Shown piece by piece: positions 8,835 through 42,973 of a DNA stretch of 45,278 nt. The position numbers and the translations under genes were made by a program. The stretch is from Clostridia bacterium (GTDB lineage Bacteria; Bacillota; Clostridia; Oscillospirales; CAG-272): positions 1 to 45,278 of the forward strand of contig JAFYOX010000056.1 in NCBI GenBank assembly GCA_017547755.1, in the 5' to 3' direction. Numbering within the stretch: position 1 is the first letter of the stretch; every line of letters begins with the position of its first letter. Under the pieces are notes generated by a model that made no database searches, had not been told where the DNA came from, and saw only the letters and a program-made list of their open reading frames with translations.

Positions 8835-8844
8835 GCCTGCCTCC

Positions 8845-9300: not shown

Positions 9301-9301
9301 A

Positions 9302-12968: not shown

Positions 12969-13306
12969 AAGCGGTCACGAAAATCGTTATCATCGACGAC
13001 AACGGCGAAAAATTTTTCGGAGAAGGTCCCGCAAGACTTATGCACGGCATCGAAGAAACCGGATCCCTGCGCGGAGCGGCGATGTCCATGGGAATGGCAT
13101 ACACCAAGGCGCTGAAGCTGATCGGCAATGCGGAAAAAGTCCTTGGATTCCCCCTGACCGAACGTGTGACGGGAGGTATCAAAGGCGGCGGAAGCCGGAT
13201 CACCCCCAAAGGAAAGGAATGGCTTACCAAATATGAAAACTACCGTGACGCCTGCATGGCTGCCAGCGCCCGACTCTATATGGAATTCTTTCCGGAGCAG
13301 CAGTAA
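12965..13306 (+). CDS. ModE-type winged-helix regulator without molybdate-binding domain
   Basis: A 113-residue protein matching the N-terminal LysR-like HTH of ModE: the ARLMHGIEETGSLRGAAMSM helix pair, the YTKALKLIGNAEKVLGFPL recognition region and an RVTGGIKGGGSRITPKGKEW wing. E. coli ModE carries in addition two MOP (molbindin) domains that sense molybdate; these are absent. Single-domain versions are common beside molybdate genes in clostridia. The start is a TTG with AGGAGG upstream, overlapping the ATPase stop codon. I infer that it controls this operon, and perhaps the divergent hydroxylase, through the inverted repeat at 10145-10168. How it would sense molybdenum status is not visible. 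Confidence 0.82.
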   Translation: MKAVTKIVIIDDNGEKFFGEGPARLMHGIEETGSLRGAAMSMGMAYTKALKLIGNAEKVLGFPLTERVTGGIKGGGSRITPKGKEWLTKYENYRDACMAASARLYMEFFPEQQ

Positions 13307-25129: not shown

Positions 25130-27040
25130 TTAAATTTTCTGATATTCCCAGAGAGCAACCGAGCGGATCGGCTGCCGGAAGGTGATCTGGGTACCTTCCT
25201 GGACAAATTCTTCGCCGGTTCTCATATTTGTGAACCGATACGTTCCTTCTCTCAGCTTCGCGGAAACCGTCTTTGATTCCTCCGGAGCTCCGTTGTTGCG
25301 GATGACTTCGAAGATCCCGTGTTCCTTTTCGGGTTCATCGAACTGCCATACGGTCCACTTGAAGCGGCTCTTATGATAGGGAGTCAGCGCGTAGAAATCC
25401 GCAGTACAGAGAACCGGCGCGGTACGGTAGAAAAGATCCGCATATTCCCGTGCCAGTGCGAAATCCTCTTCGGTTTTGGAATCGAGGATCACGGATGCGA
25501 AATTCAGCGCGGGTGCGAAGGAAGCGAGCACGTTGAATTCGTCGGCTGCAGTGATGTCCATCATCGGACCGTCGCCTTCGTAGGATCCGTCCGCGCGTTC
25601 CCACGACCAGCCGAAGCCGCGGAAGTAGGGGATCCAGGTATAGAGCGTCTGCATGAAGGACTGCTGTACGGGGTGTTCGCCGTAGCCGTAGTCGGTTTCA
25701 TGCAGAGGAACGGAGCGGCGCATGGTTTCGATGTCGTTCCGTCTGCCGCCCGATGCGCAGGAGTCGATCAGAAGGTCGGGGAAGCGTTCTTTCAGCGCAT
25801 CCCAGAACCGGAGATAGCCCTGAACATAGAGGTTTTCCGTTGCTCCGCGGCGGTCTGCGGCATCGGCTTCCTGCCAGATGGGATGCGGACAGAAATTATA
25901 GTCCTGCCGGTAGATCTTGATGTGGGATTCTTCGATCACATCGCCGATCTTTTTGATCAGATAGTCACAGCAGTCTTTCTGAGAAAGATCAAGCATTTTG
26001 ACGTACGGATCGTTCTTTGCGGAAATGATCCATTCGGGATGCTCCGCCAGAACCTTGGATTTTGCGGTGACACGTTCGGCTTCAAACCAGACGAGGAAAT
26101 CGATGCCGTTTTTCTCACATTCCTCACCGATCGGTGCAAGACCGCGCGGGAACCGTTCGGTATCGCAGGTCCAGTCGCCGACCGTTCCCCACCAGTCGTC
26201 GTGTCCGTTGTCGTTCTTGGAATAGTACCATCCGGCGTCAAGCCACCAGAGATTGATGTCGATCCCGTGTTCCTTTGCAAGGCGGATGTGTTCGAGCTGA
26301 TTTTCTTCGGTCGCATGCGTGAATTCGATGGTTCCGGGAGGTGCGTATGCCCCCTGAAGAAGCGGCTTTGCGGTTCCGACGTGCTTGAGATACCATCTTC
26401 TCCAGACATTGATGCCGTGCTCGAGCGTTCCTTCAAAGGAAACCACGACGATCAGCGGTGTGCGGATGGTTTCTCCCGGAAGGATGGAAATATTGAAATC
26501 CTCCGCGCTTTCCTGCTGTGCCGCCCAGTACCGGATGCCGCCTTCCACCTTCTTGAAAAGCGATTCCCATTTTCCCGGCCAGCCGATGGCGATGTTGTGT
26601 CCGTGACCGTCGAACGTAAGGCGCTGATAAGGGAACGCCCGGTCACAGCTTCGGCCGCCGAAGGGAGACTGCCGCAGTTCGTAGCCGTAGGAAAGGATCG
26701 TTTCCGCGGTGGAATAGCCGTCCCGGGAGCAGTAGTCACCGTTGCAGGTGTAGACCCTGTCGTTTTCGCCTTCAAAGACGGTGTGGATGGCATAGACATG
26801 GCGAAGGACCGGGGATTTTTCCGTTCCTCTGTTCGTGAAGTAAACGGTCCATTCCGATGCGTCAAAATCATCATAAGCGACGCATTCCGCACGGACTTCC
26901 ACTTCGCCGATGAGGGCAGTGTAGGTAATATGCGTACCGTTCTGCTCCGTCAGGGTATTTTCCGGCATACCGCGGTATGTGGTTCCTCCGAGTTCAAACG
27001 AGACCGGAAGGGACTGCGGATCAAGTACAAATTTTCTCAT
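25130..27040 (-). CDS. GH36 alpha-galactosidase-like enzyme
   Basis: A 636-residue protein built like GH36 enzymes: an N-terminal supersandwich (about 1-230), a TIM barrel and a small C-terminal beta-domain. Catalytic motifs are IKIYRQDYNF, with the nucleophile Asp, and SCASGGRRNDIE, with the acid/base Asp. INLWWLDAGWYYSKN and DFLVWFEAERV are also typical (the latter replacing GLWFEPE). GH36 acts on alpha-galactosides or alpha-GalNAc; which one cannot be decided here, though GH123-like and sialidase-like neighbours make mucin-type glycans plausible. No signal peptide is present. GGAGG lies before the ATG and its promoter is at 27096-27124. Confidence 0.85.
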   Translation of the reverse strand: MRKFVLDPQSLPVSFELGGTTYRGMPENTLTEQNGTHITYTALIGEVEVRAECVAYDDFDASEWTVYFTNRGTEKSPVLRHVYAIHTVFEGENDRVYTCNGDYCSRDGYSTAETILSYGYELRQSPFGGRSCDRAFPYQRLTFDGHGHNIAIGWPGKWESLFKKVEGGIRYWAAQQESAEDFNISILPGETIRTPLIVVVSFEGTLEHGINVWRRWYLKHVGTAKPLLQGAYAPPGTIEFTHATEENQLEHIRLAKEHGIDINLWWLDAGWYYSKNDNGHDDWWGTVGDWTCDTERFPRGLAPIGEECEKNGIDFLVWFEAERVTAKSKVLAEHPEWIISAKNDPYVKMLDLSQKDCCDYLIKKIGDVIEESHIKIYRQDYNFCPHPIWQEADAADRRGATENLYVQGYLRFWDALKERFPDLLIDSCASGGRRNDIETMRRSVPLHETDYGYGEHPVQQSFMQTLYTWIPYFRGFGWSWERADGSYEGDGPMMDITAADEFNVLASFAPALNFASVILDSKTEEDFALAREYADLFYRTAPVLCTADFYALTPYHKSRFKWTVWQFDEPEKEHGIFEVIRNNGAPEESKTVSAKLREGTYRFTNMRTGEEFVQEGTQITFRQPIRSVALWEYQKI

Positions 27041-29021: not shown

Positions 29022-31550
29022 TTACAGCGTGATCCTATACATCCGGCGGGTTTCTCCGGCTTTCATGAATTCCCCGAAGCCGTCGTAAATATCCTCCGTA
29101 TCAGCGAGGACAAACGGGACGGCACAGCGGGTATGTACATCGATGAAGCCGTCGCCGGACGTAACGTCCGGTTCGTCGGTTCCGAATGCCATATCGGCAT
29201 ACCGGTGCATGGGAGGCAGGGCAAAGGCACGGTCATTGCCGCGTCCGGTCGATACATCCGCAAGCAGTACGGTTTCCCGATCCATGGAGATCGCGGGAAC
29301 GGACAGAACCGCGCCGGTCACTCCGGCAGGCTGACATACGGGGATCTCTGTAACGTGATCCTCTTCGCCTGTGACAAGATTGTAACGGTACAGCCGCAGA
29401 TGTCCTTCCGCCGTTTCGCCGGTGCCGTTGTGGCTCAGATAGACTACGGTATTTCCGTCTTCGTTTGGAACGATGGAAGCGATCACCGGCTTCGCACACC
29501 GGCGGAAAGCATAATACCCCGGTTTCGGCATGGTGTAATAGTCCGCGATCGACCATCCGTTTGCTGCGGGCCAGCAGTCGTTCCACATCCAGAACAGGAT
29601 CCCGGACGAATACCACGCATTCCGGCGGAACAGTTCCATTGCCAGCCGGATCCATTCGCAGTGAAGGAACTGCATTTTCTTCACACGGTCGGCGCCGCTT
29701 TTATATTCTCCGAAAATGCCTTTTGTCAGACGATCCACATACCCGTACAGCGTAATGCTTCCGAGTCCGGGATTGTTCTTCGTGTGATATTCGCTCATGG
29801 AGGTATCATCCCCGAAAATATCTTCGTCGGTCAGGAACCGCCGCAGAGACGATACAAACGGCATCCCAATGGCAGGCTGTTCGGCAGTGAACCGGTCGAG
29901 ATAATGATCAAAGTATTCCCGGTATCCGCTCCATCCCTGTTCGGATTCCGTGATCCCGGCGGCAAGATTTGCATCCGCAGTCCGTACCCATCCGAAGAAA
30001 TTCCCGAGGAACTGCGTATTGTGGGACGTGCCGCGTACACCGGAAGCGTAGGGAACGCCGCCGTAAGGAGAAGACGGAAGGAACCGGCGTTCGGGGTCAA
30101 GCTCGGCAAGAACCGGTCCGATGGCTTCCAGAGCGGCTTTTCTGCCGTTGTAATCCATACGGTTTTCGTCGCCTGCCACGGCGTTTTCGTTGTCGCCCGA
30201 CCACCATACCAGCGAAGGATGGTTCCGCAGGGCAAGTGCGGCTGTCCGGGCTTCGTTTCTCAGATGATCCAGAAGTTCGTCTTCCGGATAGGAACCGCAT
30301 GCCATCAGGAAATCCTGCGTCACAAGGATCCCCGCTTCGTCGCAGGCGGTATAGAACGCATCGTTTTCAAAAATACCGCCGCCCCAGACGCGGAGCATCG
30401 TCACGCCGGCGTTTTTGGCAAGTGCCACGAGTCTGCGGATCTTTTCCGGCGTTTCCGCGGAAGGGAAGGGTTCGCAGGGTACCCAGTTGGCACCCTGACA
30501 GAAGATCTCCGTGCCGTTGATGAGCAGACAGAACCGGGAGGAACCTTCGTTCCGGTCCCATTCGATCAGATGATCGTACTTCTTCAGTTGTTTCGCCTTT
30601 TCTGCCCATGCGGAACCCGGTGCATCCTCCGTTTCCAGAAGGATCACCGTCCGGATTCCGAAGGACTGGTTTTTGCTGGAAATCAATGTCCCATCGGCAC
30701 CGTAAACTTCACAGGTCAGCGTGTACAGCGGCTGTTCGCCGTATCCTACCGGATACCACAGCTTCGCATCGGGAATATCGACTGTTTCGTCGATGTCCGC
30801 GCTGTGCGGATCGGTCGTCGGAAGGATCCGCCGCTTTTTGCTCCAGACCACATTCCCGTCCGGACCGGCGATGGAAAGATGCGCCCGGCCGTTTCCGGTG
30901 ATATCAAGGAAATGCAGGGAAAGTGCAACCTGTGCGCCGAAGGGATTCACGTTTTTCGTCCGGATATAGATGCCCTCATTGCCGGTTCCGAGCCGGTCGT
31001 GCGCCAGCGTGTCTCCGGTCCCGCAGACCAGTTCCACCGGACGCCAGATTCCCATGGTCACGAAGCGTCCGACCCAGTCCCAGCCGTACGTACACTGGAT
31101 CCGGCGGGTATACAGACGTTCCGAGGTAAAGGCGGCACTGCGTCCGGGACGGCCTTCCACCTCGCGCACCGGGGAACGGAATTCGACGGTGATCGTGTTT
31201 TCTCCGGGCTTCAGGATGCCGGAAAGAGCAAACCGCCACGGGATGAACATATTGTCGGTTTCCCCGAGCTTCACACCGTTGACGGAGACTGTGCTGTAGC
31301 AGTCCAGTCCGTGGAACAGAAGCGCCGCGTTTTCCGGGATCTCCTCTAAGTCAAAGATGCCGGTGCAGGTCACATCGCAGTTCTCGATCCACTGACAGCT
31401 TTCCGCGTTGTCGCGCCGGAAGAGGTCACCGAGGATCCCGGCTTTCTGAAGGTCGGTATGAATGCACCCGGGAACTTCGGCGGGAACGGTATAGTCATAG
31501 ACGCCGTCGGGCGAAACGATCCGGGAAGTCCATGTAATATCGGTAAGCAT
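29022..31550 (-). CDS. GH2 beta-mannosidase-like enzyme
   Basis: An 842-residue GH2 enzyme with the beta-mannosidase layout: N-terminal jelly roll (WTSRIVSP...YTVPAEVPGCIHTDL is a beta-mannosidase opening), Ig-like domain, TIM barrel and C-terminal beta-domains. RRIQCTYGWDWVGRFVTMGI and VTMLRVWGGGIFENDAFY are family words. The acid/base Glu is in WWSGDNEN. The nucleophile Glu is probably the one in RFTAEQP, where the family usually shows RFxSEFG, so the site is somewhat divergent. It would release mannose from the non-reducing end of beta-mannosides in the cytoplasm; no signal peptide is present. GAGGAG precedes the ATG. Followed upstream on the same strand by a VOC-fold gene. Confidence 0.85.
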   Translation of the reverse strand: MLTDITWTSRIVSPDGVYDYTVPAEVPGCIHTDLQKAGILGDLFRRDNAESCQWIENCDVTCTGIFDLEEIPENAALLFHGLDCYSTVSVNGVKLGETDNMFIPWRFALSGILKPGENTITVEFRSPVREVEGRPGRSAAFTSERLYTRRIQCTYGWDWVGRFVTMGIWRPVELVCGTGDTLAHDRLGTGNEGIYIRTKNVNPFGAQVALSLHFLDITGNGRAHLSIAGPDGNVVWSKKRRILPTTDPHSADIDETVDIPDAKLWYPVGYGEQPLYTLTCEVYGADGTLISSKNQSFGIRTVILLETEDAPGSAWAEKAKQLKKYDHLIEWDRNEGSSRFCLLINGTEIFCQGANWVPCEPFPSAETPEKIRRLVALAKNAGVTMLRVWGGGIFENDAFYTACDEAGILVTQDFLMACGSYPEDELLDHLRNEARTAALALRNHPSLVWWSGDNENAVAGDENRMDYNGRKAALEAIGPVLAELDPERRFLPSSPYGGVPYASGVRGTSHNTQFLGNFFGWVRTADANLAAGITESEQGWSGYREYFDHYLDRFTAEQPAIGMPFVSSLRRFLTDEDIFGDDTSMSEYHTKNNPGLGSITLYGYVDRLTKGIFGEYKSGADRVKKMQFLHCEWIRLAMELFRRNAWYSSGILFWMWNDCWPAANGWSIADYYTMPKPGYYAFRRCAKPVIASIVPNEDGNTVVYLSHNGTGETAEGHLRLYRYNLVTGEEDHVTEIPVCQPAGVTGAVLSVPAISMDRETVLLADVSTGRGNDRAFALPPMHRYADMAFGTDEPDVTSGDGFIDVHTRCAVPFVLADTEDIYDGFGEFMKAGETRRMYRITL

Positions 31551-32165: not shown

Positions 32166-34913
32166 ATGAACCACATTATTTCTCTTAACGGAAGCTGGAA
32201 CATCGACTGGCTGTGCGGCGAACCGTATACCGCAGAGCGTGAACCGGAGATCCGCCCGGGATCGGATTCGGTCACATCCTGTCCCGTTCCCGGCTACTGG
32301 GAGGATATGACCGACCTCTTCCGCACCACAGCTCTGCATACCAGACTGAAATGGAATCCTCTGTATACCTTACAGCGGTATCCGCAGGCAGGATATGTCC
32401 CCGATATGGCACTGCCGGATCCGTTCGGATGCCTTGTATATCAGCGTACTGTGGAGCTGGATGAGAACCCGCCGTACGAGACCGAACTATTTATCGGCGG
32501 CGCACAGAATACCGTCTCCGCATGGATCAACGGCGTATATCTGGGACGGCATGAGGGCTATTCCGCGCCATTTGCTTTTGCCGTTCCGGCGGATGCGCTG
32601 AGAACCGGCGGAAACCGGATCACGCTTGCCGTGTCCAATCACCGGCTCGCCGGGTATATGGGACGTCCCGTGTCCGGGCTGACCTCCCGTGCGGCAAACG
32701 AATGTACCGGCGGCATCTGGGGCGATGTACAGCTGTGCCGGTATCCGGACGGTCTGCGGACTCCGTATGTTACCACAGCGGATGACTGCACCGGTTTCAC
32801 GGTGCACTGCAGTCGGACGAAAACGGACAAAACCGTCCGCATTCTGGACGGCGGCAGATGTGTCCGAAGCATCGTGATCCCGGCGGATGCGGAGGAAGCC
32901 GTGTTCTCTGCGGAAGGATTGACCTTCTGGTCGCCGGATAGCCCGAAGCTCTATACGGCGGAGGTTTCCACGGAACATCAGACGATGTCCGCACGGTTCG
33001 GGATCCGCCATCTGACGGTGCGCGGAACAAAGCTGTATCTCAACGGGGAACCGTACTTCTTCCGCGGGACCTGCGAGCACTGCTATCAGCCCGTGACGGT
33101 CCATCCGACCCGGGAGAAGGGTTACTACCGCATGGTGATCCGGAAACTGAAGGAACTGGGATTCAACTCCATCCGCTTCCACACGTGGGTTCCGCCGGAA
33201 GAATATATGGAAGCCGCGGACGAGCTCGGCATGGTTCTCGAGATCGAATCCCCCAACAATACTGCATACGAAGAATGGCGTGAGATCGTCCGTTTCTGCC
33301 GTGGACACGCGTCGGTGAATATCTATTCCACCGGGAACGAACTTCAGATCGACGCGGATTACGAAAAGCATCTGGAAGCCTGCGCCGGACTGATCCACAG
33401 CGGCACGGACTCCCTGTTCTCGCCCATGTCCGCTATGCGCGGGATCGAGTACCACTTCACGGATGCCGACGGGACGACGGACATCCCGTTTCGGTACAAT
33501 CCCGCCAGACTCGGAAATGTCGGAAAATACTGCGACGTCTACAACAGTTATTCCAACGCGCTGACCAGTTATTCTTCCGCGTCCGGTACGCAGAAGGTGC
33601 TGGATGAACGCAACGCCGTCTACGGAAAGCCCCTTCTGTCCCACGAGATCAGCATCCACGGTACGTGGATCGACCTGTCTCTGGAGGAACGGTACCGCGG
33701 TACGCGCATCGGCGACACGGAATTCATGTCCTCCGTCCGCCGTCATCTGGCGGAAAAAGGACTTCTGGAACGATCCAATCTGTACTACCGTAATTCCTGT
33801 GCATGGCAGCAGATCCTGCGGAAGCACTGCTTTGAAACGGTGCGCCGCTGTAAGACCTTTGCCGGATACGATTTCCTCGGGGACATCGATACCCACTGGC
33901 ATACGTTCGGCTACTGCGTGCGAATGATGAATGAGTTCTACGAGCTGAAGCCGGGCGAAACCGTGGAAAACGTGCGCCGATACAACAGCGATACGGTTCT
34001 TCTTGCCGATCTGCCGGGATCCGTCAATTATTCCGCCGGAGAAACGGCGGAGATCCCCGTGCTGGTATCCCATTACGGCAGAGAGATCCCGAAGGCGTCC
34101 CTGCATCTGCGGATCACCGGAGAGGGAAGAGTGCTTTACCGGAAGGAACTGCGGCTCGGCGAGATCCCGCGCGGAGAAGTCACGGAACTGTATAAGATCG
34201 CCTTCCGGATGCCGAAATGCGACAAACCGATGGCACTGACCCTGACCGCACAGCTTTCCGGCGGTGATACCGACTGCGAAAACCGGTGGGAACTGTATGT
34301 TTTCCCGAAAAACGCCGCGCCGAAAGCGAAAACGCTGAAAGAAAAGAACGTCCTTGTCACCGGAAACTGCGGCGGCACGGCGCTGTGGAACGCTCTGTGC
34401 GAAGGAAAAAACGTCATTCTGTTCGGGACAGGTCCTTTTGCTTCCGCGGAGGTGAACTGGCAGATCGCTCTTGCCGGACGGACGAACGGGCATCTGGCAA
34501 CGGTGATCGCGGATCATCCGCTGACAGAAGATTTCCCGCATAACGGATACTGCGGCAGACAGTTCGAGCATCTGATGTACGGCAGCCGCTCTGTGGTGCT
34601 GGATGTGAAAGGACAGCCGCACGAACCCATTCTGGACATCGCATCCGCCTATAAAAACGCACAGAAGGAAGCCATGCTCGCGGAATACCGGGCAGGCAGG
34701 GGACGCCTGCTGATCTGCACGCTGAGCCTGCCGGAGACCGATCCGGCGGCGCGCTGGCTGAAGAACCGGATCCTTGAATATGCGGCAGGAGAGGATTTCG
34801 AGCCTGCGCAGGAGCTGTCGGAAACGCAGTTTGCCGCGCTCTGCAGGGTCTCTCCGGTGAAGACGGCAAAGAATGCCAATGAGGCTATGAACAAAAATGA
34901 CATTACCATGTGA
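32166..34913 (+). CDS. GH2-family glycoside hydrolase
   Basis: A 915-residue enzyme. Jelly-roll domain (ISLNGSWNIDWLCGE..., VYQRTVELDENPPYETELFI), Ig-like domain, then a barrel starting with RHLTVRGTKLYLNGEPYFFR, typical of GH2. The acid/base Glu is in IYSTGNELQ and the probable nucleophile Glu in LLSHEISIHG. The substrate is undetermined: GH2 includes beta-galactosidases, glucuronidases and others. The C-terminal 250 residues hold beta-domains plus a ThuA- or GATase-like segment (NVLVTGNCGGTALWNALCEG, NVILFGTG). AGGAGG is 7 bases before the ATG, after the promoter at 32098. There is no signal peptide. Only 50 bases separate it from the sensor kinase gene, suggesting that a glycan-derived signal controls the region. 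Confidence 0.8.
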   Translation: MNHIISLNGSWNIDWLCGEPYTAEREPEIRPGSDSVTSCPVPGYWEDMTDLFRTTALHTRLKWNPLYTLQRYPQAGYVPDMALPDPFGCLVYQRTVELDENPPYETELFIGGAQNTVSAWINGVYLGRHEGYSAPFAFAVPADALRTGGNRITLAVSNHRLAGYMGRPVSGLTSRAANECTGGIWGDVQLCRYPDGLRTPYVTTADDCTGFTVHCSRTKTDKTVRILDGGRCVRSIVIPADAEEAVFSAEGLTFWSPDSPKLYTAEVSTEHQTMSARFGIRHLTVRGTKLYLNGEPYFFRGTCEHCYQPVTVHPTREKGYYRMVIRKLKELGFNSIRFHTWVPPEEYMEAADELGMVLEIESPNNTAYEEWREIVRFCRGHASVNIYSTGNELQIDADYEKHLEACAGLIHSGTDSLFSPMSAMRGIEYHFTDADGTTDIPFRYNPARLGNVGKYCDVYNSYSNALTSYSSASGTQKVLDERNAVYGKPLLSHEISIHGTWIDLSLEERYRGTRIGDTEFMSSVRRHLAEKGLLERSNLYYRNSCAWQQILRKHCFETVRRCKTFAGYDFLGDIDTHWHTFGYCVRMMNEFYELKPGETVENVRRYNSDTVLLADLPGSVNYSAGETAEIPVLVSHYGREIPKASLHLRITGEGRVLYRKELRLGEIPRGEVTELYKIAFRMPKCDKPMALTLTAQLSGGDTDCENRWELYVFPKNAAPKAKTLKEKNVLVTGNCGGTALWNALCEGKNVILFGTGPFASAEVNWQIALAGRTNGHLATVIADHPLTEDFPHNGYCGRQFEHLMYGSRSVVLDVKGQPHEPILDIASAYKNAQKEAMLAEYRAGRGRLLICTLSLPETDPAARWLKNRILEYAAGEDFEPAQELSETQFAALCRVSPVKTAKNANEAMNKNDITM

Positions 34914-34963
34914 GGACATGAGTTTATGCCCGGATTTTACAGACAGCCAGAGGGAATTGACAA

Positions 34964-36829
34964 ATGACGAAGTTTAAAGACAGAATATTGAAAAGCTCCT
35001 ATTTGCAGGCGGCGGGGATTCTCTTGCTGATCGCGCTTGCCGCACTGCTCCTGCTGTTCAACAATCTCAACAGCATGCAGGCGACCAGCGCCCTGATCTC
35101 CCAGATCCGGTTTTACGGCGACTACCGGATCGGGGACGGTCCGTGGCAGGAGATCACGGAAGGGGAACATATCCCCGCCAATCAGGGGGATGTGACTCTG
35201 CGCGGCAATTTTCATATGCTGACGCCGGACGGCGAGTACGTCGGCATCTACCGCGGGGAGATTCCCGTTGCGTTCTATATCAATCACATCGCTATAACGA
35301 TCCTTGAAGAAGGAAACGAGCCGTACATCCTCGATATGGAGAATCCGCTGTACGGCAGTTCCGCCTGCGGCGTGAGCTGGTATGCCTGTCTGCTGTCCGG
35401 CGAACCCGAAGAAACGGTCGAGATTATGATCCGGAATCCGCACCGTTTCGGGAACGAAAACGCGATCGACGAAATGCTGTCCGGTCTGTCACTCTGGGCA
35501 GGGATCGATTTTGAAAGAGACATCATGGAAAGCGGTCAGTACCAGCGGAATATCGGACTGTTTTTTGTGATCGTCGCGTTCGTTCTGCTCGGCTCCGCAC
35601 TGTTTTCCGCACTGCTCCATATTCCGAACAGCCGGATCATCGGACTGTTCGGCGCGGCGATCCTTTCTGCCGGGATCTATCTGGCGTACAGCGTTCCCGG
35701 CATATCCTTCTGGAGCGAACATATTGCCGGGAATACGAGCATCCTCGGGTTTTCCATGATGTTCTATATGCTGTTCGTATCGGCGATCATCCTCTGTTCG
35801 CTGAAGAAAACCCGGCGGATCGGCTGCATTGCGGCTGTCCTGTCCGGGATCACGGACGGGCTGTATTTTCTCCTGCCCGTGCTGACGGGTATGTATTTCT
35901 ATGACACATGGCTTCCGTGGGTGATCACGCAAAGTGCGTCAAATATCGTACTGCTGATCTGTCTGGCGGCGGAATTCCGGACATCCGGCAGAAAGGAACG
36001 CCTGCAGAACATCGGACTGGCACTTATTGCCATTGCCTTTGAAGCGGATGTGATCGCGACCGCATCCGGCTTCTGGCAGGGCGGACTTGTTTCCAAGTAT
36101 GTATTTTACGTCATGTTCCTTGCCGCGCTGTTCGTGGTGCTTCGCCTGATGCCGGAAAGCATCAATGCCGCGTTCAGGGCACAGGAACTGGAACTGCAGA
36201 GAAGCCGTCTTCTTGCGGAAAAAAACATGATGGAGGCGGAACTGAAGGACAGCCGGATCGCCCTTATGCTTTCGCAGATCCGACCGCACTTTATCTACAA
36301 CACGCTCGGAACGATTGAGCGGATGTGCCTCAAAGACCCGCAGAAGGCGTTTGAGCTTGTGCGGAATTTCAGCCTGTATCTCCGGGGCAATTTCGGCGAG
36401 CTTGACAGCGTGACGCCGATCCGTTTTGCCGAGGAGCTGAAGCATATTGAATATTACGTCAACATCGAAAAAGTCCGTTTCCCGGATATGAACATTGCAT
36501 ATGACGTGAACATCACCGAGTTCGTTCTTCCGGCATTGTCCGTACAGCCGCTTGTGGAAAATGCGATCAGGCACGGTCTTATGCGGCTGGAGAGCGGCGG
36601 AACGGTCGTGATCCGTTCCTATGAAACAGCAGAGCACTACTGCGTCGAGGTAAAGGACGACGGCGCGGGATTTGATCCGTCAGCTCCCATGGACGAAAAA
36701 AAGCACGTGGGACTGCGGAACATCCGCGGAAGACTGAGCGCAATGGTGAACGGTGAACTGTTTATCGAAAGCAGACCGGGCGGCGGCACCAGAGCCGTAA
36801 TAATGATTCCGAAGGAGATGACCGAATGA
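34964..36829 (+). CDS. LytS-class membrane sensor histidine kinase
   Basis: A 621-residue kinase. An N-terminal membrane segment (about 16-35) is followed by a ~160-residue extracytoplasmic region and a block of about seven membrane helices (about 190-400), as in 7TM-DISM sensors. A coiled coil and the His_kinase domain follow, with phospho-acceptor His442 in SQIRPHFIYNTLGTIE. The HATPase domain has VQPLVENAIRHGL (N box), VKDDGAGF (G1) and VGLRNIRGRL/PGGGTRAVIMIP (G2). Such kinases usually partner LytTR regulators. AGAGGG precedes the ATG. The stop codon overlaps the response regulator start (ATGA), making a cognate pair almost certain. The extracytoplasmic domain has no recognised ligand. 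Confidence 0.87.
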   Translation: MTKFKDRILKSSYLQAAGILLLIALAALLLLFNNLNSMQATSALISQIRFYGDYRIGDGPWQEITEGEHIPANQGDVTLRGNFHMLTPDGEYVGIYRGEIPVAFYINHIAITILEEGNEPYILDMENPLYGSSACGVSWYACLLSGEPEETVEIMIRNPHRFGNENAIDEMLSGLSLWAGIDFERDIMESGQYQRNIGLFFVIVAFVLLGSALFSALLHIPNSRIIGLFGAAILSAGIYLAYSVPGISFWSEHIAGNTSILGFSMMFYMLFVSAIILCSLKKTRRIGCIAAVLSGITDGLYFLLPVLTGMYFYDTWLPWVITQSASNIVLLICLAAEFRTSGRKERLQNIGLALIAIAFEADVIATASGFWQGGLVSKYVFYVMFLAALFVVLRLMPESINAAFRAQELELQRSRLLAEKNMMEAELKDSRIALMLSQIRPHFIYNTLGTIERMCLKDPQKAFELVRNFSLYLRGNFGELDSVTPIRFAEELKHIEYYVNIEKVRFPDMNIAYDVNITEFVLPALSVQPLVENAIRHGLMRLESGGTVVIRSYETAEHYCVEVKDDGAGFDPSAPMDEKKHVGLRNIRGRLSAMVNGELFIESRPGGGTRAVIMIPKEMTE

Positions 36830-37602
36830 AAGCGATCACAGTGGATGATGAAATCCATATGCTGGAAACCCTGCAGGAAGCCGTATGCGCGTCTTCCGAC
36901 ATCGAGTATGCGGAAGCGTTTACCTCCTGTTCCGCCGCACTTGCATACGCCGCGGAACATCCTGTGGATATAGCTTTCCTTGATATCCATATGCGCGGGA
37001 TCGGCGGTCTCGAACTTGCCGAAAAGCTGATGGAGCTTCATCCCCGATGCCGGATCATCTTCTGTACGGGGTATGAAGAATATGCCGTATCGGCATTTCA
37101 GCTTCATGTGTCCGGCTATCTGATGAAGCCGATCACCGCGGAAGCGGTGCAGACGGAGATCGACCACATCAAGGGTGTCCGGACGACGGAAAAACTGCTC
37201 ACCATCCGGTGCTTCGGGAATTTCGAGGTGTTCTGCGGCGGGAAAGTCCTTCCTTTCCGCCGGAAGAAAACCAAGGAACTGCTCGCTGTCCTGACCGACC
37301 GCAGCGGTGCGGGGATGACGGCAAAGGAGATCTGTGCGGTCCTGTTTCCGGAGGATACGGACGGGATAAAGAATACGGCGTACCTGCGGCAGCTTGTACT
37401 CGACCTCAGGAACACGCTGAAAACCGTCCGCGCGGAGGATGTCCTGAAGCATGAAACGCCGTATTACCGGATCGACACCGACCGGATCCGATGCGATTAC
37501 CTCAGTTTTCTGGAAAACGGCAAGCCGGAGTTTTTCGGCGAATACATGACGCAGTACAGCTGGGCGGAGGAAACCTGCGCAATGCTCCAGTTCCGTAAAT
37601 GA
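36826..37602 (+). CDS. response regulator with SARP/OmpR-like winged helix
   Basis: A 258-residue regulator. The receiver domain (1-125) has the acidic pair Asp7/Asp8, phospho-acceptor Asp53 in AFLDIHMRG, a Thr in FCTGYEE and Lys in LMKPI. The C-terminal domain (about 135-235) has IRCFGNFEVFCGGKVLPFRR and KKTKELLAVLTDRSG, followed by NTAYLRQLVLDLRNTL and PYYRIDTD: the winged-helix layout of SARP/BTAD-type activators. LytS-class kinases normally work with LytTR-type output domains, so this combination is less usual. It overlaps the kinase gene by 4 bases. Probable targets are the nearby glycosidase genes or the glycyl radical enzyme operon (inference only). Confidence 0.83.
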   Translation: MKAITVDDEIHMLETLQEAVCASSDIEYAEAFTSCSAALAYAAEHPVDIAFLDIHMRGIGGLELAEKLMELHPRCRIIFCTGYEEYAVSAFQLHVSGYLMKPITAEAVQTEIDHIKGVRTTEKLLTIRCFGNFEVFCGGKVLPFRRKKTKELLAVLTDRSGAGMTAKEICAVLFPEDTDGIKNTAYLRQLVLDLRNTLKTVRAEDVLKHETPYYRIDTDRIRCDYLSFLENGKPEFFGEYMTQYSWAEETCAMLQFRK

Positions 37603-37649
37603 GGAAAAAACGCAGGATACGATTCCGCCGTTTTCATATGCTGCCGGAA

Positions 37650-37679
37650 TTGTCAATCTCCCGCCGATTTTCTTGACAA
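37650..37679. promoter_or_regulatory. inverted repeat overlapping a -35 box
   Basis: TTGTCAA (37650-37656) and TTGACAA (37673-37679) are perfect inverted half-sites with a 16-base gap; the right half contains the -35 hexamer of the next promoter. It is a candidate operator. Confidence 0.45.
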
Positions 37680-37701
37680 GCGGCAATATCTGTGCTAACA
37701 T
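37673..37701 (+). promoter_or_regulatory. promoter of the glycyl radical enzyme operon
   Basis: A consensus TTGACA (37673-37678), 17 bases, then TAACAT (37696-37701) preceded by an extended TG. It makes the operon independent of the two-component genes. Confidence 0.75.
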
Positions 37702-37744
37702 TAAGAAAATATTATCCGCTGCCGCGCAAACGAAAGGGATGTCT

Positions 37745-39907
37745 ATGAATTACCTGCATGATCTGAATATCTTCCGCTTCCGGAAAGGCTACGTATACGA
37801 ATGGGATAATTTACCTGTTCCCATGCGTGAGGCAAAGGTTTTCCTGAAGCTGATCGAAGCATACCCCGTACACATCGAGCCGGACGACCTGTTCGCCGGA
37901 TGGTACGGATTCAAAACCGAAGAGGAAATGACGGCGGCATACCCTCCGGAGCCGGAAGGTGCGCTCGAAAAACTGCCGCATAAACAGGAAGGCTTCCCGA
38001 CACTTCCCGATATCGGCGCTCTGCGGGCGCACGGCTTCCATCCGGGGAGCTATGACACCGCGCATCATGAAAACGATTACCGCGCGATCCTGTCCGGCGG
38101 TATGAATCAGTATAAGACGAGAATTTCGGAAGAACTCCGGAATCCGGAAAACAGCGAAGAGAAGAATGTGTTCCTGGAAGCCATGCTGGAATCGCTGAAG
38201 GGCGTTGAGATGCTCTCGTATAAGTTCGCGGAGCTCGCAAAGACCATGGCGGAACAGGCAGAGGACGCCAAAGACCGGGAACGTCTTCTCCGGATCGAAG
38301 CCGCGTGCCGCAAGGTTCCGATGGAACCGCCGGAAGACTTCTTTGAAGCGGTGCAGGCGGCATATCTGGTGCGGATCCTGACATCCATCTCCTATGTCTG
38401 CTGTGTTTCCGTATCGTTCGGGAATTTCGACCGGTATATGTACCCGTATTATCTGGCTTCGAAGGAAAAGGGTGTCAGTGACGACGAGATCCTTGCGATC
38501 CTTCTTCAGCTTTACCGCATTCTGGACAATTACGGCGGAAACGACTGCGCGATCAGCGTCGGCGGTGTCGACGAAAACGACCGGGACGCGACCAACGAAC
38601 TGTCCTTTCTGATGATCCGGGCGGAAAAGATGTCGAAGCTCCGCTCACCTCTCTTTACGGCGCGCATCCATGCGGGCACGCCGAAGGAATTCCTCCGCGA
38701 ACTGGTCAGCAGGGAATTATTTGAGATCGGTCAACCCAGCTTCTACTCCGAGGAACGGTGCCGCGAAGCGGTCGCTTCGCGCGGGATCGCCATAGAGGAA
38801 GCGCGGAACTGGAACATCAGCACCTGCATGAATCTCGTGATGGCAGGTCAGGAGGCGGCGCACGGCTGGGGATGCAAGGTCAATACCCATCTGCCGCTCG
38901 AACTGGCTCTGAACGGCGGTCAGCCGCTGTCCGGCACCTTCGATCTGCCGCTGAAAACGCCGCCGAAGCGTTCGTATGCGGACATCGACGAGGTTTACGA
39001 TCAGTACCGCAGTTATCTGCGGGAGCTTCTCCATTACGCCATGGAATGGCAGCATCTGGAAACCAAGCGGATGGCGCAGGCGTATCCGAATCCGTTCATC
39101 GCCGTACTGACGGAGGACTGCATCTCCCGCGGAAAGGACCGCTGGGACGGAGGTGCGAGATACCATAATCTGGTTATGGAAATGATGGGCTTCGCCAATA
39201 CCGCCGACGCGTTCACGGCGATCGATGCGCTGGTATTCGAGCAGAAAAAATATACCCCCGACGATTTCATCGCCGCGGCACAGGCGGATTACGTGGGATA
39301 CGAAGATTTCCGCGATCAGCTTCTGCGCTGTGCGAAGTACGGCATGAACAACGAAAAAGCGGACGGCAGTGCGCGCCGTGTCCTTGCCATCGCGTCGGAG
39401 CTGTGCGAGGAAATGCGCGCGGAAAACCGGAGATATCTGCCGTCCCTGCATACCCTCTGGGATGACGTCCACTGGGGACGCGGTATTCCCGCGTTCTTCG
39501 ACGGACGCAGAAGCGGCGAACCGGTGAACAAGAATGCCGGTCCCGCCACACTCGCACGCCGTGCAGGTCCCACGGCGCTCGTCCTGTCCGCCGGACGTCT
39601 CGATCAGATCCGCTGCAGCGGCGGTCAGGCGCTCGATGTGCATATCGGCGCACGGAATCTCGACACCGACGCCGGACGCGACAAGATCGGTGCGTTCATC
39701 AAGACCTACTTTGCGCTCGGCGGACTGCAGATTCAGGTGAACGCCCTGAGCAGTGAAACGCTGCAGAAGGCGTACGATCATCCGGAGGAATACCCCGATC
39801 TTCTCGTGCGCATCGGCGGTCACAGCCGCTATTTCAACGAATTCGACAACGATATGAAGCAAAAATTCATCGAACGGTTCAAGATCGAAGAAGGAGCCGA
39901 TGCGTGA
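37745..39907 (+). CDS. glycyl radical enzyme of unknown class
   Basis: A 720-residue protein of the pyruvate formate-lyase/glycerol-dehydratase superfamily. The C-terminal glycyl radical motif is RIGGHSRYF with Gly692 as radical site, 28 residues from the end. The candidate thiyl cysteine is Cys361 in NISTCMNLVMAG. In dehydratase and C-N/C-S lyase classes the equivalent is GCVE, with a Glu two residues later; here Met-Asn follows, so that base is missing. PFL's Cys-Cys is also absent. The following GWGCKVNTHLPLELALNGG aligns well with the superfamily. The enzyme is shorter than usual (about 780-850). The promoter's -35 box excludes the longer frame; AAAGGG is 6 bases before this ATG. Its activase gene overlaps its stop codon. 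The substrate is unknown. Confidence 0.85.
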   Translation: MNYLHDLNIFRFRKGYVYEWDNLPVPMREAKVFLKLIEAYPVHIEPDDLFAGWYGFKTEEEMTAAYPPEPEGALEKLPHKQEGFPTLPDIGALRAHGFHPGSYDTAHHENDYRAILSGGMNQYKTRISEELRNPENSEEKNVFLEAMLESLKGVEMLSYKFAELAKTMAEQAEDAKDRERLLRIEAACRKVPMEPPEDFFEAVQAAYLVRILTSISYVCCVSVSFGNFDRYMYPYYLASKEKGVSDDEILAILLQLYRILDNYGGNDCAISVGGVDENDRDATNELSFLMIRAEKMSKLRSPLFTARIHAGTPKEFLRELVSRELFEIGQPSFYSEERCREAVASRGIAIEEARNWNISTCMNLVMAGQEAAHGWGCKVNTHLPLELALNGGQPLSGTFDLPLKTPPKRSYADIDEVYDQYRSYLRELLHYAMEWQHLETKRMAQAYPNPFIAVLTEDCISRGKDRWDGGARYHNLVMEMMGFANTADAFTAIDALVFEQKKYTPDDFIAAAQADYVGYEDFRDQLLRCAKYGMNNEKADGSARRVLAIASELCEEMRAENRRYLPSLHTLWDDVHWGRGIPAFFDGRRSGEPVNKNAGPATLARRAGPTALVLSAGRLDQIRCSGGQALDVHIGARNLDTDAGRDKIGAFIKTYFALGGLQIQVNALSSETLQKAYDHPEEYPDLLVRIGGHSRYFNEFDNDMKQKFIERFKIEEGADA

Positions 39908-40812
39908 TGGCGGACGGACTGGTGTTTGACATCCAGCATTTCTGTCTGGACGACGGTCCCGGAATCCGGACGACCGTGTTTTTCAAGGGATGCCCTCTGC
40001 GGTGCATCTGGTGCCACAATGCCGAAGGTCTGTCCGCGGAGCCGCAGCTTTATTACGCCTCCGAAAAATGCACCGGATGCAGAAAATGCGCGGACGTCTG
40101 CCCGGAAAACGTCCATTCTTTCCGCGAAACGGGGCATGACGTCGATTTTTTGTCCTGCGTGAGCTGCGGATCCTGCGCCGATGTCTGCGGCAGGGAAGCC
40201 CTGCGGATCGCCGGACGGCGCATGAGCGCACGGGAGGTGCTGAAGGATGTCCTCGCCGACAAGCCGTTTTACGATCAGTCCGAAGGCGGCGTCACCCTGT
40301 CGGGCGGAGAGCCGCTGATGCAGGGCGATTTCGCCTGTGAACTGGCAGAACTCGCCAAAATAAACGGTCTTCACGTCTGCGTCGAGACCTCGGGATACTG
40401 CACACCGCAGACGCTCCGGCAGATCCTGCCGTTCACGGATCTGTTCCTGTTCGATTTCAAGCATCATGATCCACAGCTGCACCGGCGGTTCACCGGGGTC
40501 GATAACCGGCGGATCCTTGAGAATCTGCGGTTTCTGTCGGAGAACGGGAAAGAGCTGATCCTGCGCTGTCCCATCATCCCCGGATGCAATGACAGCGAGC
40601 CGCATTACCGGGCGATCGCGGAGCTTTCGGAGGAATTATGCGGCGTGACCGCCGTTCACATCGAGCCGTACCACCCGTTCGGGCTGAGCAAATACCGCGC
40701 GGTCGGCAGGAAAGCGGCGTACGTCCGCGACGAACTGCTTGACCGTCGGGATGCGGAGCGGATCCGGGATCATATCGCGTCGCTCACGGCAAAGCCGGTG
40801 GTGATCTCCTGA
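39907..40812 (+). CDS. glycyl radical enzyme activase (radical SAM)
   Basis: A 301-residue activating enzyme that would abstract hydrogen from Gly692 of the adjacent enzyme using S-adenosylmethionine. The radical-SAM cluster ligands are Cys29, Cys33 and Cys36 (KGCPLRCIWC). An inserted ferredoxin-like domain has two further Cys clusters (CTGCRKCADVCPE and CVSCGSCADVCG), as in activases of the dehydratase-type enzymes rather than PFL activase, which lacks it. VTLSGGEPLMQ is the SAM-binding GGE motif. It begins with ATG overlapping the TGA stop of the enzyme gene (TGATG); a GTG three bases earlier is also possible. The tight coupling confirms the pair as a functional unit. Confidence 0.9.
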   Translation: MADGLVFDIQHFCLDDGPGIRTTVFFKGCPLRCIWCHNAEGLSAEPQLYYASEKCTGCRKCADVCPENVHSFRETGHDVDFLSCVSCGSCADVCGREALRIAGRRMSAREVLKDVLADKPFYDQSEGGVTLSGGEPLMQGDFACELAELAKINGLHVCVETSGYCTPQTLRQILPFTDLFLFDFKHHDPQLHRRFTGVDNRRILENLRFLSENGKELILRCPIIPGCNDSEPHYRAIAELSEELCGVTAVHIEPYHPFGLSKYRAVGRKAAYVRDELLDRRDAERIRDHIASLTAKPVVIS

Positions 40813-40865
40813 CGGAGACGGCACACGTTTGAATACCATATTTTAACACACAAAGGAGAACTCCC

Positions 40866-41258
40866 ATGAAGCGCGTTTACGAATTTCTCAAAAAAGCAGA
40901 GGTCTATTATCTGGCGACCGTCGAAGGCGATCAGCCGCGCGTCCGTCCGTTCGGCACGGTGAACGAATTCGAAGGAAAGCTCTACATCCAGACCGGCAGA
41001 GTCAAGCCGACGAGCGCACAGCTTGCCGCGAATCCGAAGGCGGAGATCTGCGCGTTCACGGAAGGCGCGTGGATCCGCGTTGCCTGTGAACTCGTGGAAG
41101 ACGACCGCGTCGAAGCGAAGAAGGCGATGCTCGACGCATACCCGAATCTCCGCGGAATGTACGACGAAAACGACGGAAATACGCAGGTCTTCTGGATGAA
41201 GAACGCCTGCGCGACCTTCTGTGCCTTCGGAAAAGCGCCGGAAACCGTCGAATTCTGA
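40866..41258 (+). CDS. PNPOx-like split-barrel flavin protein
   Basis: A 130-residue protein of the pyridoxamine-5'-phosphate-oxidase-like fold: AEVYYLATVEGDQPRVRPFG (first strands with the flavin-contacting RPFG), KLYIQTGRVKPTSAQLAANPKAEI and a C-terminal strand FCAFGKAP. Such proteins bind FMN or F420 and are often used as small reductases or heme-binding proteins. No catalytic residues are obvious. AAAGGAG lies before the ATG. It follows the activase by 53 bases in the same orientation without a terminator between them, so it probably belongs to the glycyl radical enzyme operon. A hairpin terminator follows it. Confidence 0.8.
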   Translation: MKRVYEFLKKAEVYYLATVEGDQPRVRPFGTVNEFEGKLYIQTGRVKPTSAQLAANPKAEICAFTEGAWIRVACELVEDDRVEAKKAMLDAYPNLRGMYDENDGNTQVFWMKNACATFCAFGKAPETVEF

Positions 41259-41303
41259 AGCGATTGCCGCAAAACGGCAAGGATATAACCCCGAATAACA
41301 CAG

Positions 41304-41340
41304 AATCTCCCCGGGAAGCCATGCTTCCGGGGAGATTTTT
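41304..41340. terminator. terminator hairpin
   Basis: AATCTCCCCGG (41304-41314) with CCGGGGAGATT (41327-41337) plus an inner GAAGC/GCTTC pairing, one bulged base, then a T run. It lies between convergent genes. Confidence 0.85.
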
Positions 41341-41356
41341 CGATCTGTCTGTTAAT

Positions 41357-42973
41357 TTACCTTGTTCCGGCAGTCACACGGACGGTGAACGCGAATCCCG
41401 CGCACCGCACCGTGATGTGCGCTTCGCCTTCCTTTCCGGCGAAGGTCACATAACCGTTTGCATCCACGTGTACCACATCGGGCGCATCGTTTTCATAGGT
41501 CACCGCAGGATCGGTGTCCCCGCCGATCTCGAACCACGTTCCGTTCGCATAATCGGCGATGCCGCGGATCTGCTTCAGCTCATTTTCGGCGGTATTGAGG
41601 AAATATTCCGTCACGACCGGGCGGAACCCGACGACCTTCCGGTTGTCCCCGGAGAGATCCGTATCCGCCGGATAAACGATCACGGGGATCTGCACCGTCC
41701 GTCCGCCGTAAGCCGCATCGATGTACGTCGCACCCACCCGTTCGCCCCGGACAGTCATGCCGTCGACGGAGAGCACGGACGCGTCGTAATTCGAGAAGGT
41801 CACGCCGTCTTCCGCCGGATACCGGCGGTAGCAGGTGTCCAGCCAGAGCAGATTCATCTTCACCGATTCGCCGATGCGGAGCCGGTAAACATGGGGAACG
41901 CTCGTTACGGCGATCGGCCAGACCGGATCGGGGTCGGGGAAGCAGGTCAGACCGCGCGAAACGTTCGGCAGACCGGTCTCGGAGTAGAAATCCTCGTCCA
42001 TTCCTTCGAAATCATAGCGGTGGAGACGGGTACCCCATTTGCCCCACTGATCGCCGTAGGCGTAGGCAAGGAGCATGAGGTCGCCGGACCTGATATGATG
42101 CAGACCGTCGCCGGAGATGCCGCTGTTATGGCACATCCAGCTTGTATTCACGCGGATCTCGTTCACGCGGCGGAAGGTCAGACCGTCGTCGGACTCATAG
42201 ATCGCGAGCATACTGTCCGCGGTGAAGCGTTTGTCCGTGGAAATAGCGACGAATTTGTCGAGATCCTCGCAGTAAACGACGTCGAACGAGTCGTTGGAGC
42301 CGCCCGAGCGCATGACGGCGACGCCGCGGTATTCGAGAGTCGCAGGCCAGTCCTCGCGGGTCATATCGGCGGTCGCAACGCGGGTCATGTGGTACGCACT
42401 GCCGTCGGCGCGGGTGGACGTCCACGTGAAGTACATATAAAGAACGTCATCCTTCACCACAAAGGACGGCTCCCCGGCGCCCCATCTCTGCCACGGCTCA
42501 TCGAAATAGACGATGGGCGCAGGCTTGCCGGTCCAATGGAGATCGCCGCGGTGCTCACCCCAGCCGTCGCCGGTCCATTTTTCGTAGGGACCTTCGGCAT
42601 TTCTCGACCGTGCGACGAAGGCATTGTTGCACACGCCGCCGCCGTGGGAAAAGACGGTGGAGGTGTAGCCGATGTAATAGTAGCCGCCGTGGAAGATCAC
42701 TGCCGGGTCGCAGACGGAGAACCAGTCCATGGAATCGGCGGTCGGCATGAGAACGACCACCTCGGGCGACCACGTCCTGCCGCCGTCGGTGGATTTCTTA
42801 TAGGTGAACCAGTCGGCTTCGCCTTCCGCACCGGGAGAAGCGAACCAGGCTTCGCAGATGCCGTCACGCACCATGATGCTGGGACCGTAGCGGTAGCCCC
42901 ATGTCATCCCCTCACAGGGCGCATAGATGTCACATCCCTCGTCGGGCAGACGGAGCCGGAAATGTTTCTTCAT
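41357..42973 (-). CDS. GH43-like beta-propeller with C-terminal Ig-like domain
   Basis: A 538-residue protein. Residues ~20-330 look like a five-bladed GH43/GH32-type propeller: YGPSIMVRDGICEAWFAS, DPAVIFHGGYYYIGYTST and GAGEPSFVVKDDVLYMYFTW have the blade signature, and the Asp and Glu of DPAV and GEPS are candidate catalytic residues. Residues ~370-450 form a BIG2-type Ig-like domain (VTFSNYDASVLSVDGMTVRG...), and a second beta-domain of similar kind follows (TDPAVTYENDAPDVVHVD...). Such modules are normally extracellular, yet there is no signal peptide. AAAGGATG precedes the ATG, and an extended -10 promoter is seen at 43016-43024. The activity (arabinofuranosidase-, xylosidase- or phosphorylase-like) cannot be decided. 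Confidence 0.72.
   Translation of the reverse strand: MKKHFRLRLPDEGCDIYAPCEGMTWGYRYGPSIMVRDGICEAWFASPGAEGEADWFTYKKSTDGGRTWSPEVVVLMPTADSMDWFSVCDPAVIFHGGYYYIGYTSTVFSHGGGVCNNAFVARSRNAEGPYEKWTGDGWGEHRGDLHWTGKPAPIVYFDEPWQRWGAGEPSFVVKDDVLYMYFTWTSTRADGSAYHMTRVATADMTREDWPATLEYRGVAVMRSGGSNDSFDVVYCEDLDKFVAISTDKRFTADSMLAIYESDDGLTFRRVNEIRVNTSWMCHNSGISGDGLHHIRSGDLMLLAYAYGDQWGKWGTRLHRYDFEGMDEDFYSETGLPNVSRGLTCFPDPDPVWPIAVTSVPHVYRLRIGESVKMNLLWLDTCYRRYPAEDGVTFSNYDASVLSVDGMTVRGERVGATYIDAAYGGRTVQIPVIVYPADTDLSGDNRKVVGFRPVVTEYFLNTAENELKQIRGIADYANGTWFEIGGDTDPAVTYENDAPDVVHVDANGYVTFAGKEGEAHITVRCAGFAFTVRVTAGTR

Follow-up and report, generated by a model that had tools for sequence, protein, structure and literature searches.

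In eliminases of the glycyl radical enzyme (GRE) family, the glutamate of the CXE motif is commonly regarded as the catalytic base. What does a GRE do when it lacks this residue? The question is raised by the window, the whole stretch of 45,278 nucleotides analyzed here. It is contig C41 of a 3.05-Mb, 74.8% complete Clostridia assembly, and its host bacterium probably comes from an animal gut. The window encodes a GRE that keeps a thiyl cysteine and a radical glycine and carries an asparagine at the glutamate position. This enzyme falls in a clade that is a real GRE subfamily, apparently undescribed in print. We tentatively favor reading it as an active enzyme that makes a deoxy sugar for aldolase cleavage, and a role of the subfamily in sugar metabolism is likely.

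The glutamate position and the clade around it

The Cys loop of the window GRE reads N-I-S-T-C-M-N-L around Cys361, and its radical region reads L-L-V-R-I-G-G-H-S-R-Y-F around Gly692. In HMMER alignments, Cys361 falls on the thiyl cysteine of 2f3o, diol dehydratase 5i2a, glycerol dehydratase 1r8w, CutC 9f3w, and HypD 6vxc, and Gly692 falls on the radical glycine of solved GREs. Since Cys361 aligns with known thiyl cysteines, the position of the CXE glutamate is Asn363. An earlier note on this DNA had described the reading frame, Gly692 within RIGGHSRYF, and Cys361 in these terms, and the translation and alignments bear it out. Its further statement that Met-Asn replaces Val-Glu after Cys361 holds as well, and the CXE glutamate is absent from all 14 clade members. 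The pyruvate formate-lyase (PFL)-like and glycine radical domains, which define the GRE superfamily, both score above their curated Pfam cut-offs (24.3 bits for PF02901 and 22.2 bits for PF01228). The activase gene is directly coupled, as had also been proposed: its GTG start at 39904 overlaps the GRE stop codon, and its product exceeds the TIGR02494 cut-off for glycyl-radical activases (174.35 bits). Judged from the sequences, the thiyl cysteine and radical glycine are intact, the activase is coupled, and the clade has invariant residues of its own.

The clade was gathered by a search of 146 genomes of the window's own family, a genome-contig scan that kept the best 80 of >595 matching stretches, and whole-genome searches. 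The own-family search gave three relatives with 38–40% identity and the motif SCMG. Once duplicates were merged, 14 distinct sequences remained, with intact frames and 33–67% pairwise identity: the window, L052, L153 (= G1054), L053, L049 (= L054), L050, L055, L140, L056, L051, L139, L154, L155, and L143 (partial). L052 is 58% identical to the window GRE and L153, from the window's genus, 60%. With 14 distinct sequences in hand, a private mutation or a sequencing artefact is ruled out.

We aligned 72 GREs, comprising the 14 clade members, 13 paralogues from the window's genome, 9 neighboring GREs, and 36 rows chosen from the wider scan. In a tree built from this alignment after removal of the motif columns, a single branch (SH-aLRT 100) separates the clade from all other rows, and its stem measures 0.87 changes per column; this was a quick search without bootstrap, and some branches are long. 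Every clade member reads [ST]CM[NG] and carries a Glu at C+9 and a Trp at C+14. The CXE glutamate occurs in none of the 14 clade rows (11 Gly, 3 Asn) versus 49 of the 58 others. Thus it is not universal elsewhere either: in nine non-clade rows its place is taken by Gln (three), Val (three), Asp, Thr, or Ser (one each, the Ser row being PFL). Eighteen residues are invariant in all clade rows that have a letter there and are common to ≤12% of the other rows. Trp53, Phe326, Cys339, Met362, Trp375, Arg466, and Gln628 appear in 0/58 others; further clade-invariant residues are Glu370 (10% elsewhere), Glu479, Lys596, His569 (12% elsewhere), Gln621, and Gln330.

The residue after the radical glycine divides the clade. 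It is His693 in subclade I (the window, L052, and L153), always together with Asn363 (3/3), and Tyr or Phe in the other 11 members, which have Gly363. Among non-clade rows it is F, Y, or W in 58 of 60, with gaps in the remaining two.

How might proton transfer proceed without the glutamate? The predicted AF2 model of the window GRE has a GRE eliminase fold. It resembles four solved enzymes to the same degree, namely propanediol dehydratase, glycerol dehydratase, CutC, and HypD, at 22–27% identity in the structural alignments. The earlier note had argued that a different base implies a different reaction. This may not follow: the model fits four known eliminases alike, and the base could have moved, to His107, Glu370, His569, or, in 11 of 14 members, Asp265. 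His107 is also common outside the clade (81% of other rows). Essential Asp278 of HypD, aligned by eye, falls on window position 221, where clade members have V, A, Y, W, or F; HypD Asp339 falls on position 265, which is Asp in those 11 members and Gly in subclade I. Glu370 begins strand 370–380 of the model, directly after the Cys loop, and is a candidate for a relocated base. HypD Tyr450 stands at C+16, an even spacing from the cysteine, whereas Glu370, at C+9, is at an odd one. Asp447 of glycerol dehydratase is also evenly spaced (C+14). Glu370 may therefore point away.

Comparison with known glycyl radical enzymes

The window GRE passes no NCBIfam equivalog cut-off among those for HypD, CutC, HpsG/HpfG, PFL1, PRK09983 formate C-acetyltransferase, IAD, and HPAD, its best score being 291.1 bits against a required 1000; the L052, L055, and L056 GREs likewise fall below each. 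Its best PDB match is 2f3o by sequence search and 5i2a by profile search. Identity to YbiW and PflD is 26.5 and 25.3%, and both of these keep CXE (GCIE and GCVE), which the window GRE lacks. On these comparisons membership of a known class was rejected: the window GRE falls in none of the characterized classes that could be tested.

Passages of two papers describe CXE as a motif that GRE eliminases have in common and state that HypD and IslA lost activity when its E was changed to Q (PMC7077986, PMC8473560). Against the CXE eliminases (glycerol and 1,2-propanediol dehydratases, CutC, HypD, IslA, and HpsG), the window GRE stands apart by its C-M-N, its Trp at C+14, and its own invariant residues. 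With pyruvate formate-lyase it shares the Gly radical domain and the Cys loop, but the second cysteine of the PFL pair is missing, as the note had observed, since the window reads T360-C361-M362; a PFL-like reaction was rejected on this ground. The GRE fingerprint is given as RVxG[FWY] in part of PMC11528403; the RIGGH of the window keeps the glycine and has His for F/W/Y. Aminoacyl radical enzymes (AAREs), as described in the same excerpt, are likewise GRE homologues with an altered motif (PMC11528403). They replace the radical glycine by Ala, Ser, or Thr, whereas the window GRE keeps Gly692 and alters the CXE glutamate and, in subclade I, the residue after the glycine. The presence of Gly692 excludes an AARE identity.

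Another loss of the CXE glutamate, GCVV for GCVE, was seen in 16 of the 74 control loci L057–L130 (Sporomusa, Clostridium, Sedimentibacter, Oleispirillum, Cohaesibacter, and others): L058, L063, L078, L084, L088, L093, L099, L101, L113, L114, L117, L118, L124, L125, L128, and L129. This group (e.g., L058 and L101) lacks the glutamate as the clade does, yet lies far from it in the tree. We had expected it to be HplG; the name was dropped because the best PDB match of L101 is CutC, with HplG (7vua) much lower.

Kinase and aldolase genes beside the clade

The gene neighborhoods of some relatives hint at a production of deoxy sugars by the clade, which would then be cleaved to yield energy. At L052, a single strand encodes a solute-binding protein, a DeoC-type aldolase, a GDSL protein, an FGGY kinase, a GntR regulator, the GRE, and its activase. 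At L153, the GRE and activase are followed on the opposite strand by FGGY, a solute-binding-protein homologue, a second GRE, and DeoC, and then by a GntR homologue. The FGGY, DeoC, and GntR homologue share a stretch of 13 kb with the GRE and activase and are 51, 48, and 43% identical to their L052 counterparts. At L056, where the clade GRE occupies 7257–9317, the DeoC gene starts directly after the stop codon of this GRE, followed by GH43, Zn-ADH, FGGY, an SGL/NHL-repeat protein, a second GRE (SACC), an activase, and a third GRE. This DeoC is the only deoC match in the L056 genome, that of Ructibacterium gallinarum.

The three aldolases score 186.9, 175.5, and 229.4 bits against deoC, all above the cut-off of 117.3, and keep two lysines, in K-T/S-G/S-T-G and K-A-A-G-G, which we take to be the catalytic ones. 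Around these lysines the L052 and L153 enzymes differ from that of L056, so that their substrate may not be deoxyribose 5-phosphate. The FGGY kinase of L056 is above the xylulokinase cut-off (411.8 vs 380.25), and those of L052 and L153 are nearest to xylulokinase, yet under it (320.5 and 324.4). Elsewhere in the clade, L053 adjoins an L-ribulokinase (677.9 vs a cut-off of 583.25), and L055 lies near GH43, GH28, and an arabinofuranosidase domain. L139, L154, L155, and L056 each group two to four different GRE genes together; one to three activases and AraC-/IclR-type regulators or homologues accompany them.

A second cassette, at L160:3768-9180 (contig C241 of genome G1054), holds in one run a non-clade GRE (thiyl motif LCQD, Asp for Glu), an activase, FGGY, and a DeoC-like gene. 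Its FGGY is 45% identical to the L153 copy, and its DeoC-like protein is 52–53% identical to the L153 and L052 copies. The cassette lies near a melibiase-family protein that is 40% identical to the window GH36, and its DeoC-like gene is one of four deoC matches above cut-off in G1054. The same kind of kinase–aldolase pair thus accompanies two distinct types of GRE.

On the reading we favor, the activase would place a radical on Gly692, which would pass it to Cys361. The thiyl radical would then abstract a hydrogen atom from a carbon of a sugar or sugar-derived polyol, likely at the pentose level and perhaps phosphorylated by the FGGY kinase. Loss of a neighboring C–O group would yield a deoxy sugar, and Cys361 would quench the product radical. 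Proton transfer could run through His107, His569, Glu370, or, in most members, Asp265 in place of the CXE glutamate; alternatively, the substrate may need no base, for example if a carbonyl or hemiacetal already lies next to the radical. In relatives with the full cassette, the DeoC-type class I aldolase would split the product into a small aldehyde and a triose (phosphate). In the simplest scheme, a pentitol 5-phosphate would lose O2 to give 2-deoxyribose 5-phosphate, the DeoC substrate.

There is precedent for such a pairing. Part of PMC12441222 describes how YbiW and PflD cleave anhydro sugar phosphates (1,5-anhydroglucitol-/1,5-anhydromannitol-6-phosphate) to 1-deoxyfructose 6-phosphate. 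In Escherichia coli K-12, ybiW-ybiY lies beside fsaA, and pflD-pflC lies near fsaB, gldA, and phosphotransferase system (PTS) genes. GRE and aldolase, with PTS phosphorylation genes for pflD, are thus side by side. GRE, aldolase, and kinase are encoded together at L052, L056, and L153, but not at the window locus. The families differ, the aldolase being Fsa and phosphorylation relying on the PTS in E. coli versus DeoC and FGGY in the clade cassettes. By analogy, the GRE–aldolase logic of the clade may resemble that of YbiW/FsaA and PflD/FsaB while drawing on other enzyme families.

Is the kinase–aldolase pair truly enriched beside the clade? Counted with the same tblastn queries at all loci (the window from 27746 on), DeoC occurs at 3 of 14 clade loci, FGGY at 4, and both at 3. 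Among 74 other GRE loci of mixed taxonomy (L057–L130, 1.23 Mb), DeoC was found at none, FGGY at two, and both at none; neither gene was found at 40 non-clade GRE loci of the same lineage (0.62 Mb). The latter, all from the window's family, were hand-chosen: the window's own genome supplied 13, G1054 5, G973 2, and further genomes of the family 20. Fisher p values for the clade are 0.003 (DeoC) and 0.005 (FGGY) against the mixed loci and 0.015 and 0.003 against the same-lineage loci.

A number of observations count against a deoxy sugar made for DeoC. First, the p values should be read loosely: related loci lack independence, two of the three DeoC loci are 60% relatives, and flanks vary. The 40 also exclude L160, whose possession of both genes was established beforehand; with it the count is 1 of 41, and p, worked out by hand, is ∼0.05 for DeoC and ∼0.01 for FGGY. 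Second, the window locus holds neither gene. Its 74.8% complete assembly contains no deoC match, perhaps, though not necessarily, because a quarter of the genome is missing. The best FGGY of this assembly lies on another contig and has 34% identity. Third, DeoC is absent from 11 of 14 clade loci, including all five of subclade II, and no deoC match was found in clade genomes G468 (96% complete) and G593 (88%). Since these two carry a clade GRE, DeoC is not an obligate partner of the whole clade; the subclades may differ in substrate. Finally, deoC is common (10 of 14 control genomes), and because the R. gallinarum locus has two further GREs, its DeoC could serve one of those.

These same facts give room to another reading, in which the enzyme is active and its subfamily new but its substrate has nothing to do with DeoC and FGGY. 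That substrate could be an aglycone, an anhydro sugar, or a uronic acid derived from glycans, with the aldolases serving other enzymes of GRE-rich sugar loci. We consider this only slightly less likely than the reading we favor. DeoC is missing from 3 of 12 clade genomes and from the surroundings of 11 of 14 clade GREs, that of the window among them, and the glycan enzymes nearby are varied (GH36, GH28, GH43, an alginate-lyase family, a GLAA-B domain, and Gfo/Idh/MocA); yet the FGGY and DeoC pair accompanies three clade members of two subclades and one non-clade GRE, and it occurs at none of the 74 mixed and none of the 40 chosen same-lineage control loci. It is improbable that the enzyme dehydrates a diol by the ordinary mechanism, with its acid residues simply moved, in a step that comes after an aldolase as it does for the GRE of fucose/rhamnose microcompartments. 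Least credible by far is a decayed or regulatory GRE without catalysis, for although the catalytic glutamate is lost and subclade I has an odd His beside the radical glycine, Cys361 and Gly692 are invariant, 18 clade-invariant residues occur in ≤12% of other rows, the activase adjoins the GRE at 5 of 14 loci, and frames are intact at 33–67% pairwise identity.

We also considered the deoxy-sugar reading in its most specific form, in which a novel class of radical enzyme for sugars, working without the CXE glutamate, would begin a GRE-dependent glycolysis in animal-gut Clostridia. Here an FGGY-prepared pentose or pentitol would be dehydrated to a 2-deoxy sugar (phosphate), which a DERA-type aldolase would cleave to acetaldehyde and triose phosphate, and at least two GRE types (TCMN/SCMG and LCQD) would feed the same kinase–aldolase pair. 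In all these particulars together the scheme is rather unlikely.

The window locus and its lineage

Table 1. Features of the window GRE, its locus, and its candidate active-site residues
Feature	Positions	Strand	Basis or remark
GRE, 720 aa, [ST]CM[NG] clade member	37745..39907	+	PF02901 336.9 bits, PF01228 66.5 bits
GRE activase, radical SAM with ferredoxin-type [4Fe-4S] domain	39904..40812	+	TIGR02494 324 bits
His107 codon	38063..38065	+	aligned with HypD His160; invariant in the 13 clade members having a residue there
Cys361 codon, thiyl radical position	38825..38827	+	alignments
Asn363 codon, CXE glutamate position	38831..38833	+	alignment; Asn/Gly in 14/14 clade members
Glu370 codon (C+9), candidate replacement acid/base or structural residue	38852..38854	+	invariant 14/14
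Trp375 codon (C+14)	38867..38869	+	invariant 14/14 clade, 0/58 others
His569 codon	39449..39451	+	invariant 14/14; adjoins residue aligned with HypD Thr645
Gly692 (radical glycine) and His693	39818..39823	+	His where other GREs carry F/Y/W
Candidate sigma-70-like promoter, TTGACA-17-TAACAT, TG before −10	37673..37701	+	consensus match only
Sensor histidine kinase	34964..36829	+	domain search
Response regulator, directly upstream of GRE operon	36826..37602	+	domain search
Pyridoxamine 5'-phosphate oxidase-like flavoprotein	40866..41258	+	domain search
GH36 (melibiase family)	25133..27040	-	sequence match
GH2-family protein	29022..31550	-	domain search

The window GRE comes after the two-component pair, and genes for GH36, GH2, and GH123 are among those around it (Table 1). 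The earlier note had taken this setting as a hint of a sugar-derived substrate. The sugar-related neighbors are real, and kinases, aldolases, and glycoside hydrolases lie near some relatives; a sugar-derived substrate is a candidate. Melibiase-family genes also adjoin the clade GREs of L049 and L056. No homologue of the flavoprotein was found in any other clade locus compared. The GRE start ATG at 37745 has AAAGGG six bases 5' of it, and a further in-frame ATG lies at 37739. The candidate promoter, a short way upstream of the GRE, matches 10 of 12 consensus positions and is the only such site in 36700–41500; shuffles gave a mean of 2.1, so that about two are expected by chance in the region and the interest of the site lies in its position rather than its score. 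An open reading frame on the minus strand (32487–34919) has no Pfam match; the plus-strand frame has one. Farther away, the window encodes a molybdopterin protein of the xanthine-dehydrogenase family (6543–8834, minus strand) and a protein with NTPase-like and MobA-like NTP transferase domains (13233–14321, plus strand).

Coupling to an activase varies across the clade. By tblastn with two to four activase queries in the 8–22 kb fetched per locus, an activase adjoins the GRE at 5 of 14 loci (the window, L052, L153, L139, and L154) and lies elsewhere in the locus at 2; none was found at 7, including all five of subclade II (L053, L049, L050, L055, and L140) and L143, which ends at the GRE gene. 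Among controls, 60 of the 74 mixed loci and 11 of the 40 same-lineage loci (L161–L200) have a match. The latter count weakens the idea that lacking an activase sets subclade II apart: such loci are ordinary in this lineage, whose GREs may share activases or rely on ones encoded at other sites.

The clade appears to be rare and patchily distributed, since few genomes per sample have a match. At E ≤ 1e-150 these number 7 of 395 in the window's own family, 4 of 391 in the class, 2 of 21 in one other family, 1 of 51 in the order of G493 (G493 itself), and 1 of 378 in the phylum (the window's own genome); these samples overlap, and the counts include the own genome where it was searched. A search with a smaller alignment and a limit of E ≤ 1e-120 matched 3 of 295 genomes of the order. 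Every clade member seen belongs to Clostridia. Known sources are water deer cecum (L052), goat cecum (L053), roe deer rectum (L049 = L054), and sheep colon (L055), and L056 is R. gallinarum DSM 107454, a strain with a culture-collection number. Among open PMC papers, covered by titles, abstract starts, and some passages, we found no GRE with SCMG or TCMN and none acting with DeoC.

The window's genus is rich in GREs. The window's own genome, 75% complete at 3 Mb, has 14 GRE genes and 15 PF02901 matches (two in one frame). The genes lie on contigs C111, C43 (two), C56 (cut by the contig end), C30, C41, C105, C100, C19 (two), C60, C15, C16, and C77, and their thiyl motifs are GCIE, TCVE, GCYE (two), GCNQ, GCTE (two), GCHE, ACWE, GCVE, GCWE, GCQE, TCMN, and the PFL Cys-Cys. 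Besides these 15 matches, 23 of 24 same-genus genomes have 1–17, eight of them 11–17, and one has none; 11 sampled genomes from other genera of the family have 0–5.

Many abundant gut GREs have unknown functions, as stated in part of PMC11574389. If the deoxy-sugar reading, which draws on gene context, is true, one of them would be given a function, and the gut would harbor a second radical route for sugars, next to the one in which YbiW and PflD open anhydro sugar phosphates. A coherent clade that lacks the CXE glutamate and has conserved residues of its own offers a natural test of the role of that glutamate and of the chemistry of the fold without it. With a clade member in the collection strain R. 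gallinarum DSM 107454, the subfamily is directly testable.

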